Positions 3,792-9,412 of a stretch of DNA of 32,585 bases are shown here, piece after piece. The DNA comes from a bacterium. Lineage in GTDB: Bacteria; Sysuimicrobiota; Sysuimicrobiia; Sysuimicrobiales; Segetimicrobiaceae. A program made the translations under genes and the position numbers. A model generated the notes under the pieces. That model saw only the letters and a list, made by a program, of their open reading frames with translations. It was not told the origin of the DNA and ran no database searches. Numbering within the stretch: position 1 is the first letter of the stretch; each line of letters starts with the position of its first letter. The stretch spans positions 1 to 32,585 of the forward strand of contig DASSXJ010000129.1 of assembly GCA_035703895.1 (NCBI GenBank), in the 5' to 3' direction.

Positions 3792-4772
3792 CTATTGCGC
3801 CGCGTGCGCGGCGGCGATCGCCGCGCGGATGTTGGCCTCGGGGGTATCCACCGGCATCACACAGCCTGTCGTGACGATGTGGCCTCGGCCCCCGGTCTGC
3901 GCGATGGCGTCGCGCACCTCCTCGGCGACCTCCTCCGGGGATTTCTTGGCGAGGGTGTTCCAGGCATCGATGCCGCAGGCCAGCGCCGTGCTCACCAGAG
4001 CCCGAGCCTCGGCGATCTTGGGCGGAGTCTCGCGCGCGTGCCAGTTGATGATATGGACGGGGTAGTCGGGGAACAGATCGAACATGATATGGACGCCGTG
4101 AATGTGGAGGAACGTTAGGCCGGTGGAGGCGGCCTCGAGCACCTGCAGGTCATAGGGGCGGCCGAACTCTTCGTACTCCTCCCGGGTCAAGAGGTCCGTG
4201 GTCGCCATCTGGGTGGAGAAGAAGATCCCGTCTGCGCCGGCGCCCATCACCGCGCGCACGAAGTCGGCGGTCACCTCGGCGATGACCTGGAGCCCGGCGT
4301 GGAGCTCTTCCGGATCCTCGCGCAGATACCGGACGCTGGCGTGCTCGCCCGCGAGGGTGCGGGCAATACTGAGGGGGCTGAACACCGTCTCCAGCACGTG
4401 CACCTCGGCCCCCACGGCCTCGGCAACGGCCCGGATGGCCTGGGTCTCGCGGCCGTACACGCCCTGGCTCACGTCGAGCCGCCGCAGACGCCGCCAATCC
4501 GTTGGCTTCTTGATCGGCCGGTCGGTGTAGTGGCGAACCCCCTCGCGGTTCGCCTTGTATCCGGCCCGGAGCCCCCAGTCATCTCCGTAGTACCCGCTCG
4601 CCGGCGTGACCTTCAGCAGGTCCACATCGAAGGCTTTGTAATGCGCGATGTGGGCCTGCGCGAGTTTGTCGGCCCGCTGGTCGTCGCCGGGGAAGTGACG
4701 CCAGACCGCAGCCGGGATCTGCTCCGGCCGTTCGCCTCTCGCGGCGGCTTCGATGAGTTCACGATGGGTCAT
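3792..4772 (-). CDS. Uroporphyrinogen decarboxylase (UroD) superfamily protein, function unknown
   Basis: A 326-residue (beta/alpha)8 protein of the URO-D superfamily. The N terminus reads MTHRELIEAAARGERPEQIP and VWRHFPG, where true heme-pathway UroD has its conserved RQAGRY-type motif; that motif is absent, so it is more likely a corrinoid-methyltransferase-like or uncharacterized member than HemE. Other family segments are ADGIFFSTQMAT, LTREEYEEFGRPYDLQVLEA, LHIHGVHIMFDL and HIINWHARETPP. The ATG at 4772 overlaps the TGA of the preceding dehydratase gene by four bases, which decides this start and implies translational coupling. No methyltransferase partner or corrinoid protein lies next to it, so the substrate is open. 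Confidence 0.78.
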   Translation of the reverse strand: MTHRELIEAAARGERPEQIPAAVWRHFPGDDQRADKLAQAHIAHYKAFDVDLLKVTPASGYYGDDWGLRAGYKANREGVRHYTDRPIKKPTDWRRLRRLDVSQGVYGRETQAIRAVAEAVGAEVHVLETVFSPLSIARTLAGEHASVRYLREDPEELHAGLQVIAEVTADFVRAVMGAGADGIFFSTQMATTDLLTREEYEEFGRPYDLQVLEAASTGLTFLHIHGVHIMFDLFPDYPVHIINWHARETPPKIAEARALVSTALACGIDAWNTLAKKSPEEVAEEVRDAIAQTGGRGHIVTTGCVMPVDTPEANIRAAIAAAHAAQ

Positions 4773-5875
4773 CGCTCGGTCCTCCCGGCGGGCGACGGTC
4801 CCGGCGCGGCGGTCCCCGGCGCAGGCGCATCCGTCCCCGCGCCCCGCAGGAGCCCGGCGGCGCGCCGGACCCGGGCCTCGTCTTGATAGATCGCTGCCAG
4901 CGTCTCGAGGGTGATGTTCCCTCCGCTCAGGATCAGGACGACCGTCTTGGCCCGGAGACGGTCTCCGAGGCGCAGGGCCCCTGCGAGACTTGCCGCGCCG
5001 GCGCCCTCGGCGGTCTGGCGGACGGCCTCGGCGAGGAGCAGGATCGCCACCTTCATCTCCTCGTCGCTCACCAGGACGATATCGTCGAGGTGCCGGCGGA
5101 GGATCGTCATCGGGAGCGCAAACGGCACCCTCGTGGCGATCCCTTCGGCGAAGGTCTCCATTCGATCGAGCGTGACCATCCCGCCCTCCTTGAGCGACCG
5201 GTAGACCGGCGGGGCTCCCTCGGCCTGCACGCCGATGACCCGTACTCGGGCGCTCAGGGCCTTTGCGGTGATGCAGTGTCCGCACGCGCCGCTGCCGGCG
5301 CCGATCGGCGCGAGGATCACATCGACGTCCGGGACCTCCTCCATCACCTCCAGGCTGGCGGTCCCGACGCCGGCGATCAAGAGCGGCTCGTTCGCGGAGT
5401 GGACGTAGCGATACCCCTCCTGCGCGGCGGTGCGCTCGACCCACTCGCGCGCTTCGTCGAAGTCGCGCCCCTCGAGCACGACCTCCGCGCCCAGGGCGCG
5501 CATCGCGGCCACCTTGAGCGGGTTGCTCGCGCGCGGCGCGCCGATCACGACCCGGATCCCGAGGAGCCGGGCGGCGTAGGCGATCGACTGTCCGTGGTTG
5601 CCGGTGCTGGCGGTGATGACGCCGCGCGCCCGCTCCTCCGGCGAGAGCTGGCTGAGGAGGTTGATCCCGCCGCGTACTTTGAACGCGCCGGTCGGCAGGA
5701 TGTGTTCACACTTGACGTAGACCCGGGCGCCGAGCAACCGGTCAAGCGCGGGCGCGGGCACGAGGGGCGTGCGCGGCAGGTGAGGGGCGATCACCCTGCG
5801 CGCCCGGTAGACGTCGTGCACCGTCGGCAGGGGCCCGGGCCAGAGAGGGTCAGACATTGGCGTGGTCTTCGTCAA
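4769..5875 (-). CDS. PLP-dependent threonine/serine dehydratase-like enzyme
   Basis: A 368-residue fold-type II PLP enzyme. The Schiff-base lysine is Lys66 in TGAFKVRGG, the substrate loop is STGNHGQS (90-97), and the phosphate-binding loop is PIGAGSGACG (190-199), which differs from the GGGGL loop typical of catabolic threonine deaminase. SGGNITLE near 317 is the C-terminal cofactor motif. There is no ACT regulatory domain, so it resembles the short catabolic (TdcB-type) form; deamination of threonine or serine to a 2-oxoacid and ammonia is the likely reaction, though a racemase or another beta-elimination is possible. Residues from about 340 form an Ala/Pro-rich tail. It follows the Nramp gene by 22 bases and is coupled to the UroD-like gene by ATGA. 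A second in-frame ATG six codons in is an alternative start. Confidence 0.82.
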   Translation of the reverse strand: MTKTTPMSDPLWPGPLPTVHDVYRARRVIAPHLPRTPLVPAPALDRLLGARVYVKCEHILPTGAFKVRGGINLLSQLSPEERARGVITASTGNHGQSIAYAARLLGIRVVIGAPRASNPLKVAAMRALGAEVVLEGRDFDEAREWVERTAAQEGYRYVHSANEPLLIAGVGTASLEVMEEVPDVDVILAPIGAGSGACGHCITAKALSARVRVIGVQAEGAPPVYRSLKEGGMVTLDRMETFAEGIATRVPFALPMTILRRHLDDIVLVSDEEMKVAILLLAEAVRQTAEGAGAASLAGALRLGDRLRAKTVVLILSGGNITLETLAAIYQDEARVRRAAGLLRGAGTDAPAPGTAAPGPSPAGRTER

Positions 5876-5897: not shown

Positions 5898-7172
5898 TCA
5901 GCCGCCGACGTGGAAGACTTGGGTCACGACCAGCGCCAGCGTCAGGACGATCATCACGATCACCGTCACCCACGCGATCACGTTGAAGAGCCGGGAGTTG
6001 GTGTACGCTCCCATGAGCCGCTTGCGATTGACGAGGAGGAGCATGAAGATCAGGATGAACGGCAGGAGGACGCCGTTGGCGACCTGGGAGAGGAACAGAA
6101 TCTTCAGCAGCGGCGCGCCCGGGAGCAGGACCACCGCGCAGGCACCGACGATGAGGGCGATGTAGAGGCCGTAGAACACCGGGGCCTGGCGGATCGTGCG
6201 GTCGACGCCCGATTGAAAGCCCAGCGCCTCGCAGACGTAGTACGACGTGGCCAGGGGCAGCACCGACGCGGAGAAGATCGACGCGTTGATCAGGCCCACG
6301 GCGAAGAGGGCCCCCGCGTACTGGCCGGCCAACGGGAAGAGCGCGAGCGCGGCGTCCTTGACCGTCTCCACATGGAGATGATGCGCGAAGATCGTTGCGC
6401 CGCAGGCCACGATGATGAACCAGGCGACAACGTCGGTCATAATCGAGCCGATCAGGACGTCTGCCCGCGTATAGCCGTACTCTTTAACGGTGATCCGCTT
6501 CTCCACGACCGCGGACTGCAAATAGAACTGCATCCAGGGAGCGATGGTCGTACCGACGACCCCCACGAGCATGATCACGTAGTCGGCATGCCAACTAAAG
6601 GAAGGGGTGACCGTGGCCCGGGCGACCTCGCCCCAGTTGGGATGCGCCAGCGCCCCGGATATGAGATAGGAAATGTACAATGCGCTCGCGGCCAAAAAGA
6701 CTCGCTCGACCGACCGGAACGTGCCCTTGACGACAAGCAGCCAGACGGCCAGCGCCCCGATCGGCACGAAGACGTACTTGGAGATCCCGAAGATCTCCCC
6801 CCCGGCCGCGAGCCCCGAGAACTCCGCCATCGTGTTGCCGAAGTCGGCGAGCAGCAAAGCGAGCATGACGAAGGTGGTGGTGCGGACCCCATACCGCTCG
6901 CGGATGAGGTCGGCCAGCCCGTGACCGGTCACGGCGCCCAGCCGGGCCGCCATCTCCTGGACGACATAGAGCGCGATGGTGATCGGGATCAACGTCCAGA
7001 GCATGACGTAGCCGAACCCTGCGCCCGCCAGCGAATAGGTGGCGATCCCCCCGGCATCGTTGTCGACGTTCTGCGTGACGATACCCGGTCCCATGATGGC
7101 GAGGAAGATCATAAGCCGGCGCGTCGCCGAGGCGCTGGCCACGCGCCTCAAGATCGGGGGCGAGAAGCTCAT
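5898..7172 (-). CDS. Nramp-family divalent metal transporter with non-canonical metal site
   Basis: A 424-residue integral membrane protein with about 11 hydrophobic helices and the Nramp (SLC11) layout. In TM1 the family DPGN motif is replaced by DAGG (Asp39-Ala-Gly-Gly42, within NVDNDAGGIAT), keeping the Asp but losing the Asn. In TM6 the usual Met-Pro-His is Ala211-Pro-Trp (TTIAPWMQFYLQ), so the thioether ligand that favours Mn2+/Fe2+ is absent. This pattern resembles, as far as I recall, the Nramp-related magnesium transporters, so Mg2+ or broad divalent specificity is plausible. Its ATG at 7172 overlaps the stop of the MgtE-N/CBS gene by four bases, strongly suggesting that the two proteins work as a unit. 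Confidence 0.88.
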   Translation of the reverse strand: MSFSPPILRRVASASATRRLMIFLAIMGPGIVTQNVDNDAGGIATYSLAGAGFGYVMLWTLIPITIALYVVQEMAARLGAVTGHGLADLIRERYGVRTTTFVMLALLLADFGNTMAEFSGLAAGGEIFGISKYVFVPIGALAVWLLVVKGTFRSVERVFLAASALYISYLISGALAHPNWGEVARATVTPSFSWHADYVIMLVGVVGTTIAPWMQFYLQSAVVEKRITVKEYGYTRADVLIGSIMTDVVAWFIIVACGATIFAHHLHVETVKDAALALFPLAGQYAGALFAVGLINASIFSASVLPLATSYYVCEALGFQSGVDRTIRQAPVFYGLYIALIVGACAVVLLPGAPLLKILFLSQVANGVLLPFILIFMLLLVNRKRLMGAYTNSRLFNVIAWVTVIVMIVLTLALVVTQVFHVGG

Positions 7173-8470
7173 CCGGTGCCCGAGCCCTCGCGGACCGCTT
7201 TGCGGCGGAGGAGATCGATCCCACCGCCGAGCTTGCGGGGCCCGTATTTCTCGAGCAGCAGGTCGATGAGGTGATCGATGGTCACGATCCCCACCATGCG
7301 GCCGTCCTCTTCCACCACGGGGACCGCCAGCAGGTCGTACTTGACGAGCGCGCCGGCGACATCCTCGGCGCTGGTGTTCGCCCCGACCGTCACCACATCG
7401 GTGCGCATGAGTTGGGAGATCGGGGTCTCCGGCGGCGAGATGAGGAGCGCGCGGATCGAGAGCACGCCCACGAGGTGGCCGTGCTCGTTGACGACATACA
7501 AGTAATAGATCGTCTCGGAGTCGGGCTTGGACTCCCGCAGGCGCGCGATGACCTGCTCGACGGTCATCGCCACCGGCAGGGCGATGAACTCGGTGGTCAT
7601 CTTGCCCGCCGCGGTTTCGGGCTCGTATTGAAGGAGCTCCCGGACCTCCTCGGCCGCGCCGGCCTCCATCAAGGAGATCAGCTCTTCGGCGCGTTCCTCG
7701 GGCAATTCCCCGAGGACGTCGGCGGCCTCGTCCGGTCTCATCTCCTCCAAGATGTCGGAGGCCCGCTCGCTCGGCAGTTCCTGGATCACGGTGGCCTGGA
7801 CCTCGGGCTCTGCCTCCTCGAGGACGTCGGCCGCGTCCTCATCGGGCAGCGCCGTCATCACCTCGACCCGCTCGTCCCGATCCAAGTCCTCCAGGAGCTC
7901 TGCCAGGTCCGCCGGATGGATATCCTTCAGTTTCTCCCGGGAGATGCTGAGCTTGAGCGGGGTCATCGTGCCCCCCAGCACCGCCACCAGGTTCCACGGG
8001 ATCACGCGCGAAGGCAATGGCCGGCCGACACGCTCGAGCGCGCGGCACACAAACGGCTCGAGCCCGAGCCGCCGCAGCAGCGATCTGGTGCCGACGTCCG
8101 CGCCGATCACGCGGACCTCGTTGCCGACCTGGCGCAGCTCCAGGTCGTTGACCCGGACCACCTTGATGTCGTCGGTATCCACGACCTGCGTGTCGAGGAT
8201 GTCCTCGCGGAGGAGGATCTCGTCGGGCTGAAGCGGCCTCGGGGCCAAGCTGGGCCGCTCGACGCGCAGCCGGATCCCGGCGGCGGTGAACTCCGAGACG
8301 GCGCTCCAGGGGATGACCGCGACGCGGCTGCGGTCGCCGTTTAAGAGGATGCCGGTGATCCGCGGAAATTTCTCGGCCCCATGGTAAATGATGAGATCGG
8401 CGATGGTGTCAAACGCCTCCCCGGCCGCGTCATAGACGGGTTTCCCGATGATTCCGCTGAGGTACAGCAT
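7169..8470 (-). CDS. PRC-barrel / MgtE N-terminal domain / CBS-pair regulatory protein
   Basis: A soluble 433-residue protein. Residues about 1-75 and 88-165 are two PRC-barrel-like beta domains, each with a matching motif (VIPWSAV at 52-58, VIPWNLV at 156-162). Residues about 182-285 are the acidic superhelical MgtE intracellular N domain, full of repeats like LPDEDAADVLEE and MRPDEAADVLGELPEERA, ending in the hallmark YEPETAAGKMTTEFIALP. Residues about 300-405 are a CBS pair. The Mg2+-channel transmembrane domain of MgtE is absent: the protein ends at GSGTG after a basic segment. In MgtE these domains bind Mg2+ and close the pore. Here they are co-translated (ATGA) with the Nramp-type permease downstream, so gating that permease is the obvious hypothesis. 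The start has only a weak ribosome-binding site. Confidence 0.85.
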   Translation of the reverse strand: MLYLSGIIGKPVYDAAGEAFDTIADLIIYHGAEKFPRITGILLNGDRSRVAVIPWSAVSEFTAAGIRLRVERPSLAPRPLQPDEILLREDILDTQVVDTDDIKVVRVNDLELRQVGNEVRVIGADVGTRSLLRRLGLEPFVCRALERVGRPLPSRVIPWNLVAVLGGTMTPLKLSISREKLKDIHPADLAELLEDLDRDERVEVMTALPDEDAADVLEEAEPEVQATVIQELPSERASDILEEMRPDEAADVLGELPEERAEELISLMEAGAAEEVRELLQYEPETAAGKMTTEFIALPVAMTVEQVIARLRESKPDSETIYYLYVVNEHGHLVGVLSIRALLISPPETPISQLMRTDVVTVGANTSAEDVAGALVKYDLLAVPVVEEDGRMVGIVTIDHLIDLLLEKYGPRKLGGGIDLLRRKAVREGSGTG

Positions 8471-8525: not shown

Positions 8526-8547
8526 CATCCTCGACAACGCGAGGATG
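8526..8547. promoter_or_regulatory. Inverted repeat overlapping a promoter -35 (candidate operator)
   Basis: A perfect 8-base inverted repeat, CATCCTCG - 6 bases - CGAGGATG, lies in the 99-base gap between the divergent MgtE-like and inositol-monophosphatase-like genes. It covers the candidate -35 hexamer (8531-8536) of the plus-strand promoter, so a bound dimeric repressor would block it. As RNA read in the minus direction it would form a hairpin about 56 nt before the MgtE-like start. It is too short for the known Mg2+ riboswitch classes. Confidence 0.5.
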
Positions 8548-8559
8548 GGTGCGTATAGT
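8531..8559 (+). promoter_or_regulatory. Candidate sigma-70-type promoter for the inositol-monophosphatase-like gene, leaderless
   Basis: TCGACA (8531-8536, five of six matches to TTGACA) and TATAGT (8554-8559, five of six to TATAAT) are separated by exactly 17 bases. Transcription would start about 8566, only a few bases before the ATG at 8570, so the mRNA would be leaderless or nearly so. This agrees with the lack of a Shine-Dalgarno sequence before that ATG. Confidence 0.55.
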
Positions 8560-8569
8560 GGCGTGTAGC

Positions 8570-9412
8570 ATGCCGGTCCTCTCCCCACACACGATGGCCG
8601 CGCTCCGTGCCGCGTGCGCCGCCGCGGAGATCCACCGCGCCTTCTTCGGCAACGTGGCCAGGGTCGAGTATAAGGGCAAGAACGATCCCGTCACCGAGGC
8701 GGACCGCGCCGCGGAGGCCGCGATCATCCGGATCATCCGCGACGCCTACCCCGATCACGGGTTTCTCGGCGAGGAAGGCGGACGGCAGGGCGGCGGGCCG
8801 TACACCTGGCTCGTCGACCCGCTGGACGGCACCTTCAACTACGCCCACGCGATCCCGTGGTTCGCGGTGAGCATCGCCCTCGAACACGAAGGACGCATCC
8901 AGGCGGGCGTCATTATGCACACGATGCTGGGTGAGGTCTACGTCGCGGAGGCGGGCCTCGGCGCGTGGGCCGCCTCGCTGCGAGAGTTGCCGGCGGCACC
9001 ATCCGGACCGGGAGATCTCGCGCTGTGGCGCCGGCTGCGGGTTCGGAGCACGGCGCGGCTCGACGGGGCGACGCTGTCGACCGGATTCCCAAACAGCGTC
9101 GCGGAGGACCGGCTCAACCTCGACCACTTCACCAACCTCGTGCTCAGGGCGGCAAAGATCCGCGCCATGGGCTCGGCCGCGCTGGGCCTGGCCGCCATCG
9201 CGCTCGGGCAAACGGAGGGCTACTGGGAACTCGGCCCGAGCGCGTGGGACTTCGCCGCCGGGGCGCTGCTCGTCGAAGAAGCCGGCGGCCGGGTCAGCGA
9301 CCTGAGAGGCCGGCGGCTCGATCCGTACCGCCACCAGATCCTGGCGACCAACGGCGTGATCCACGACGAGGTGGTCGCGGTCCTCGCCATGGGGCGAAGC
9401 GGGCTGGACTAA
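8570..9412 (+). CDS. Inositol monophosphatase family phosphatase
   Basis: A 280-residue Mg2+-dependent, Li+-sensitive-type phosphatase fold, full length for the family. Metal ligands are visible in FLGEEGG (65-71) and in the signature WLVDPLDGTFNYAH (80-93), with the C-terminal WDFAAGALLVEEAGG motif near 226. KNDPVTEADRAAE at 38-50 is the conserved mobile-loop segment. Substrates in this family include inositol-1-phosphate, histidinol phosphate, fructose-1,6-bisphosphate and PAP; the sequence does not decide between them. The ATG at 8570 was chosen because a good promoter places the transcript start right before it; in-frame GTG codons at 8549 and 8558 are alternatives. Its stop overlaps the stop of the convergent ABC permease. 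Confidence 0.88.
   Translation: MPVLSPHTMAALRAACAAAEIHRAFFGNVARVEYKGKNDPVTEADRAAEAAIIRIIRDAYPDHGFLGEEGGRQGGGPYTWLVDPLDGTFNYAHAIPWFAVSIALEHEGRIQAGVIMHTMLGEVYVAEAGLGAWAASLRELPAAPSGPGDLALWRRLRVRSTARLDGATLSTGFPNSVAEDRLNLDHFTNLVLRAAKIRAMGSAALGLAAIALGQTEGYWELGPSAWDFAAGALLVEEAGGRVSDLRGRRLDPYRHQILATNGVIHDEVVAVLAMGRSGLD

Follow-up and report, generated by a model that had tools for sequence, protein, structure and literature searches.

What can the regulatory part of a magnesium channel do when the channel itself is missing? This question is raised by two adjacent genes found in a bacterial DNA stretch of 32,585 nucleotides (the whole stretch analysed, referred to here as the window), one of which encodes a soluble MgtE-like protein, hereafter the sensor, and the other an Nramp-type permease. 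The permease gene and its ion-site motifs are located as follows.

5898–7172, minus strand: NRMT-class SLC11/Nramp permease of 424 aa (PF01566 Nramp, E 2e-97; EleNRMT 7qia, E 2e-115)
7047–7058, minus strand: ion-site motif of TM1, D39-A-G-G42 (DxxG), corresponding to D55/G58 of EleNRMT (PMC8806188)
6534–6551, minus strand: ion-site motif of TM6, T208-T-I-A211-P-W213 (TxxA), corresponding to T224/A227 of EleNRMT (PMC8806188)

The sequence-only reading of this locus attributed the permease to the Nramp family, which agrees with its Pfam match, but a generic Nramp/Mn2+ transporter was dropped on the basis of the ion site, which carries instead the signature of NRMT proteins, defined as DxxG in TM1 plus TxxA/T in TM6 (Ramanadane et al. 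2022, PMC8806188). Besides D39xxG42 and T208xxA211, the glutamate of TM3 (E117) and the glutamine of TM10 (Q363) are retained, as they are in EleNRMT, and W213 replaces the first TM6 histidine of H+-coupled Nramps, those histidines being absent. Among solved structures the permease is closest to EleNRMT (E 2e-115 versus 1e-29 for MntH), which carries Mg2+ without proton coupling and transports Mn2+ as well (PMC8806188); its structure was solved with nanobodies and without a soluble partner of the sensor kind. Thus the permease can be assigned to the NRMT class by its residues, and by homology it is predicted to transport Mg2+ in a proton-uncoupled manner. Two other Nramp paralogues of the same genome have no NRMT signature. 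Their ion sites, DPAG with GATLTPY (G000:C75:1087-2262) and ENDAPS with GATVTPW (G000:C100:7458-8675), fit neither NRMT nor classical MntH.

The upstream gene has a composite structure, for the sites of which the numbering of Thermus thermophilus (Tt) MgtE is used after verification.

7169–8470, minus strand: sensor gene, 433 aa, domain order PRC-PRC-MgtE_N-CBS-CBS, without membrane segment (ORF list, Pfam, hydropathy, AF2)
8246–8470, minus strand: PRC barrel 1, residues 1-75 (Pfam PF05239, E 2.5e-8, PRC match at residues 2-71)
7976–8233, minus strand: PRC barrel 2, residues 80-165 (AF2 model compared with tandem-PRC structures)
8063–8203, minus strand: the most conserved stretch of the sensor, residues 90-136, RDxLDxQIVDxxGxKVVRVND...VDVGxRGLLRRLG, a candidate docking face (55-sequence alignment)
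7616–7921, minus strand: MgtE intracellular N domain, residues 184-285, holding D215, D247 and D251 (PF03448, E 3e-30)
7247–7597, minus strand: CBS pair, residues 292-408, with D379 and D403 corresponding to Tt D226 and D250 (PF00571 twice)
7169–7246, minus strand: C-terminal tail in place of the MgtE plug helix, followed by the stop; no EATED motif, E258/D259 ligands absent
7169–7172, minus strand: ATGA, in which the permease start (ATG) overlaps the sensor stop (TGA)

Essentially no membrane segments were registered in the sensors by hydropathy count, as had been stated earlier for the upstream gene. In the AF2 model of the sensor (pLDDT 88.7) the MgtE-like part superposes with TMt 0.88 and rmsd 1.9 on 2yvy, the N-CBS cytosolic domain of MgtE with bound Mg2+. 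PF05239 is matched by 51 of 55 sensor relatives, and Pfam recognises one PRC domain only, missing barrel 2 of the window sensor. Nevertheless the earlier assertion of two such domains is correct, since a separate AF2 model of residues 1-165 (pLDDT 91.5) matches almost over its whole length the tandem-PRC proteins CdpB1/B2 (8qzo, E 3e-5, 187 alignment columns). Reaction-centre H subunits and RimM PRC structures were also found among the structural matches of this model. The PRC-barrel fold is therefore what the N-terminal half of the sensor has in common with CdpB1/CdpB2 and the H subunit, which are archaeal division and photosynthesis proteins without an MgtE part. A cross-match of Pfam FliG_M was detected in 46 of 55 sensors within the superhelical MgtE_N region (residues 240-266, window 7673-7753).

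The full gating machinery of MgtE, ascribed to the protein by the sequence-only reading, is there only in part. The N domain, the motif YEPETAAGKMTTEF found in the translation and the CBS pair are all present, so that the sensor has the MgtE_N and CBS components of an MgtE channel, but the machinery is incomplete because the plug-helix Mg2+ ligands E258/D259 are missing; as for the membrane domain of MgtE, PF01769 has no match in the entire window genome. In MgtE the ions are bound at Mg4 (D91/D247), Mg5 (D226/D250), Mg6 (D95), Mg7 (E59), Mg2 (E258) and Mg3 (D259) (PMC5882242). Of 100 clade A sensors, 85 are acidic at E59, 91 at D91, 99 at D95, 38 at D226, 82 at D247 and 60 at D250, which means only partial retention of the Mg5 ligands, and clade B has no D91 (0/6). 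At Tt E59, D91, D95, D226, D247 and D250 the window sensor carries D, D, D, D, H and D, its D215, D247 and D251 aligning with the first three positions and its H400 occupying that of Tt D247. The plug pair is absent in 106/106 sensors, while both its residues are acidic in 15 of 16 full-length MgtE. From this retention of E59, D91, D95 and D247 in most sensors and the loss of E258/D259 it follows that the N-CBS clamp is largely kept and the sites coupling it to the channel are gone. Compared with the MgtE channel of T. thermophilus (PDB 2yvy, 2zy9), the sensor thus shares the N domain, the CBS pair and most N-CBS Mg2+-site positions, but it has neither plug ligands nor a channel, carries two N-terminal PRC barrels and is a separate chain.

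The highest conservation falls outside the MgtE part, in the second PRC barrel, a domain that MgtE does not have. D93, Q95, D98, R106, D109, R133 and R134 are invariant in the 55 sequences; clade B shares D98, D109, D125 and R133, while D93, Q95 and R106 are mostly features of clade A. We infer that this motif may dock the sensor onto the permease.

The junction of the two genes reads ...GGCACCGGATGAGC..., and the four-base overlap of sensor stop and permease start reported previously is indeed seen as ATGA at bases 7169-7172; of 102 pairs examined, 34 have an overlap of this length. No complex of this kind was known to the sequence-only reading, which has to be corrected, since the mgtE-nramp pair was described and co-expressed, and thus published as a gene pair, already in 2014 by Shin et al. 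(PMC4072509). There NrmT was named, an MgtE-N-like gene was located beside most NrmT genes, and a role of this partner in cytoplasmic feedback or as a chaperone was proposed. With its MgtE-N-like gene adjoining an NRMT gene, the window pair is therefore a further member of the group described there. In the same study Mg2+ was transported by two NrmT proteins on their own, with no need of the partner, and for the A. capsulatum pair co-expression of the partner gave no better Mg2+ rescue.

The window's phylum was sampled by 43 genomes, 31 with NRMT and 12 without it, and a full-length sensor was detected in 30/31 of the former and 0/12 of the latter, the sole exception being G016, where NRMT lies at the end of a contig. 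Among 149 evenly sampled genomes of Acidobacteriota the two sets turned out to be identical (41/41 versus 0/108), so that over two phyla 0 of 120 genomes without NRMT carry the sensor. Fisher P for these comparisons (8e-10 and 1e-37) ignores kinship of the genomes, which are not independent samples, and therefore overstates the significance. One borderline Nramp match (G149), sensitive to the threshold, has neither an NRMT signature nor an adjoining sensor. Genomic linkage was estimated for 80 NRMT loci from many phyla of bacteria and archaea: 62 are tandem pairs with the sensor, four have it nearby (three on the opposite strand, one at 3.8 kb), five are cut by contig ends, and nine have no local sensor. 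All nine genomes of the last group encode a sensor elsewhere, with one case (L059) being ambiguous, as its sensor adjoins a second, distant NRMT and is itself placed by score in the other clade. Linkage is thus common, yet not required for co-occurrence. The gene order is mostly sensor first in clade A and permease first in clade B (34-38% permease identity). Pairs were also registered on plasmids of three phyla (L160-L165, from Alicyclobacillus, Citrobacter and Actinomycetota); all six full-length plasmid sensors inspected adjoin an Nramp gene with NRMT residues in TM3, TM6 and TM10, although four actinobacterial permeases have DAGA instead of DAGG in TM1. Natural fusions of sensor and permease were not found in about 110 loci. 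An apparent one (L016) was rejected, as the sensor is split there across frames, which looks like an assembly error. Taken over the window's own phylum, Acidobacteriota, many other phyla and plasmids, the neighbourhood search proposed together with the initial suggestion shows that the pairing is kept, and the NRMT-sensor association across phyla is strongly supported.

Which ion is handled by the unit can be judged from the distribution of other Mg2+ transporters, for which the MgtE channel and CorA were surveyed. In the window's phylum full-length MgtE with its channel domain was found in 1/31 NRMT genomes versus 11/12 others, and in Acidobacteriota MgtE-type matches were detected in 3/41 versus 81/108, so that the NRMT-sensor unit and full-length MgtE are nearly mutually exclusive. 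Within the phylum only G014 combines full-length MgtE with the NRMT-sensor pair. Neither the MgtE channel nor CorA is present in the window genome or in the remaining 11 of its family, and all 12 of the high-quality phylum genomes without both transporters have NRMT, which appears to be the main Mg2+ importer in such lineages. Of 13 loci scanned, five, representing several lineages, have an M-box Mg2+ riboswitch upstream of the pair, and four of these riboswitches are close to the sensor gene. There is none in the window or in the 43 genomes of the phylum, which distinguishes it from some members described by Shin et al. (PMC4072509), although this element is not a required feature. Mg2+ is probably the main substrate of the window unit. 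The alternative, that the pair serves for Mn2+ or some other divalent metal, to which the sensor would likewise respond, seems unlikely, though it has several arguments on its side. NrmT of A. capsulatum looked mainly specific for Mn2+, a mutant defective in Mn2+ transport being rescued better than one defective in Mg2+ transport (PMC4072509), and Mn2+ is also moved by EleNRMT. In addition, the plasmid pairs of Citrobacter and Cellulomonas adjoin heavy-metal P-ATPase/ArsR genes, so that metal resistance, and not Mg2+ nutrition, may be the function of some pairs. However, replacement of MgtE by NRMT across the phylum, including the genomes without both MgtE channel and CorA, Mg2+ riboswitches ahead of the pair in several lineages and the retained hard-ligand NRMT site all argue against this alternative.

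Accepting Mg2+ as the substrate, one can assume that the pair forms a two-component uptake unit, in which the NRMT permease, proton-uncoupled by homology, would admit Mg2+ driven by the electrochemical gradient. At high internal Mg2+ the ions would occupy sites between the N and CBS domains of the sensor, bringing it into a closed state like that of MgtE, in which it would damp the permease in trans. The tandem PRC barrels may stand in for the plug helix and membrane domain that the sensor lacks, holding it against the cytosolic face of the permease. Since EleNRMT moves Mg2+ without proton coupling (PMC8806188), uptake of this kind would track membrane potential unless braked, which gives physiological sense to the feedback, and MgtE handles uncoupled uptake through the same N-CBS clamp. 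Based on these data we consider it rather probable that the sensor acts in trans as a Mg2+-dependent brake on NRMT, an uncoupled transporter. The more specific version, where the PRC-MgtE_N-CBS protein is a dedicated and separable gating subunit of NRMT, with a Mg2+-closed clamp docking via the second PRC barrel and braking an SLC11 protein, has in our estimation about an even chance. The physical complex, the negative sign of regulation and the docking role of PRC domains are all conjectural steps in this scheme. The absence of fusions, the partial Mg5 ligands, the lack of D91 in clade B and the histidine of the window sensor at Tt D247 speak against the brake, as do the partner-free Mg2+ transport of two NrmT proteins and the Mn2+ preference of the A. 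capsulatum one. Mutants of MgtE regulation rescue Mg2+ auxotrophs, yet are hypersensitive to Co2+/Ni2+ (PMC5529423), and because they still rescue, the negative rescue result of Shin et al. 2014 for the A. capsulatum partner is not contrary to a brake, though it does not show one either. Thus, in the claim that an MgtE-type sensor controls an unrelated permease, the pairing stands across phyla, the permease itself falls into the Mg2+-transporting NRMT class, and control retains the probability given above.

We know of no earlier regulatory subunit in the SLC11 family. If the scheme is true, the sensor of one transporter family has been re-used by an unrelated one, and the pair illustrates how gating modules can be passed from one transporter to another of no kinship with it. 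Near-obligate pairing across many phyla suggests a separate brake on Mg2+ uptake, and its persistence in unlinked genes, together with the candidate docking motif, makes the role of the partner directly testable. In the passages of Shin et al. (PMC4072509) considered here we found no description of the obligate pairing in trans, the exclusion of MgtE, the PRC2 motif or the missing plug ligands, and literature searches on Rv1232c and on PRC combined with MgtE gave nothing useful.

It seems unlikely that the soluble protein never contacts the permease, being instead a Mg2+ chaperone or serving another target. PRC barrels are present in the ribosome-maturation factor RimM, RimM and CdpB structures match the PRC part of the sensor, the sensor gene can be unlinked from NRMT, and a chaperone was listed as an alternative by Shin et al. 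2014 (PMC4072509). A general target is, however, unlikely, since in the two phyla no genome lacking NRMT had the sensor. Its structural matches also include reaction-centre H subunits, whose PRC barrels dock onto a membrane protein from the cytoplasm. Even less can be expected from the assumption that the soluble protein senses mainly adenine nucleotides, i.e. the energy state, with Mg2+ binding being secondary. CBS pairs often bind nucleotides, and of the MgtE ATP-site residues Y170 is kept in 68/100 and R187 in 65/100 sensors (with K in 13 more), the window sensor having both, but the ribose/adenine ligands D188, N203 and F227 are not conserved, whereas the Mg2+-site positions D95, D91 and D247 are. 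Finally, mere co-inheritance of linked genes without functional coupling is very improbable, since both genes are retained when unlinked, have opposite order in two clades and travel on plasmids of three phyla, even though related genomes are not independent and the distance correlation of the pairs (r 0.69), which fits shared history, cannot separate co-evolution from vertical descent.

Several genes surround the sensor-permease pair. A PALP-family (threonine/serine dehydratase-like) gene (4769-5875, minus strand) begins about 22 bases past the permease stop and is followed by a URO-D family gene (3792-4850, minus strand); both may belong to the sensor-permease transcript. On the other side, about 100 bases away, an inositol-monophosphatase-family gene (8570-9412, plus strand) diverges from the sensor gene, with a sigma-70-like site on the plus strand (8531-8559) between them. 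Enzymes of this family are Mg2+-dependent.
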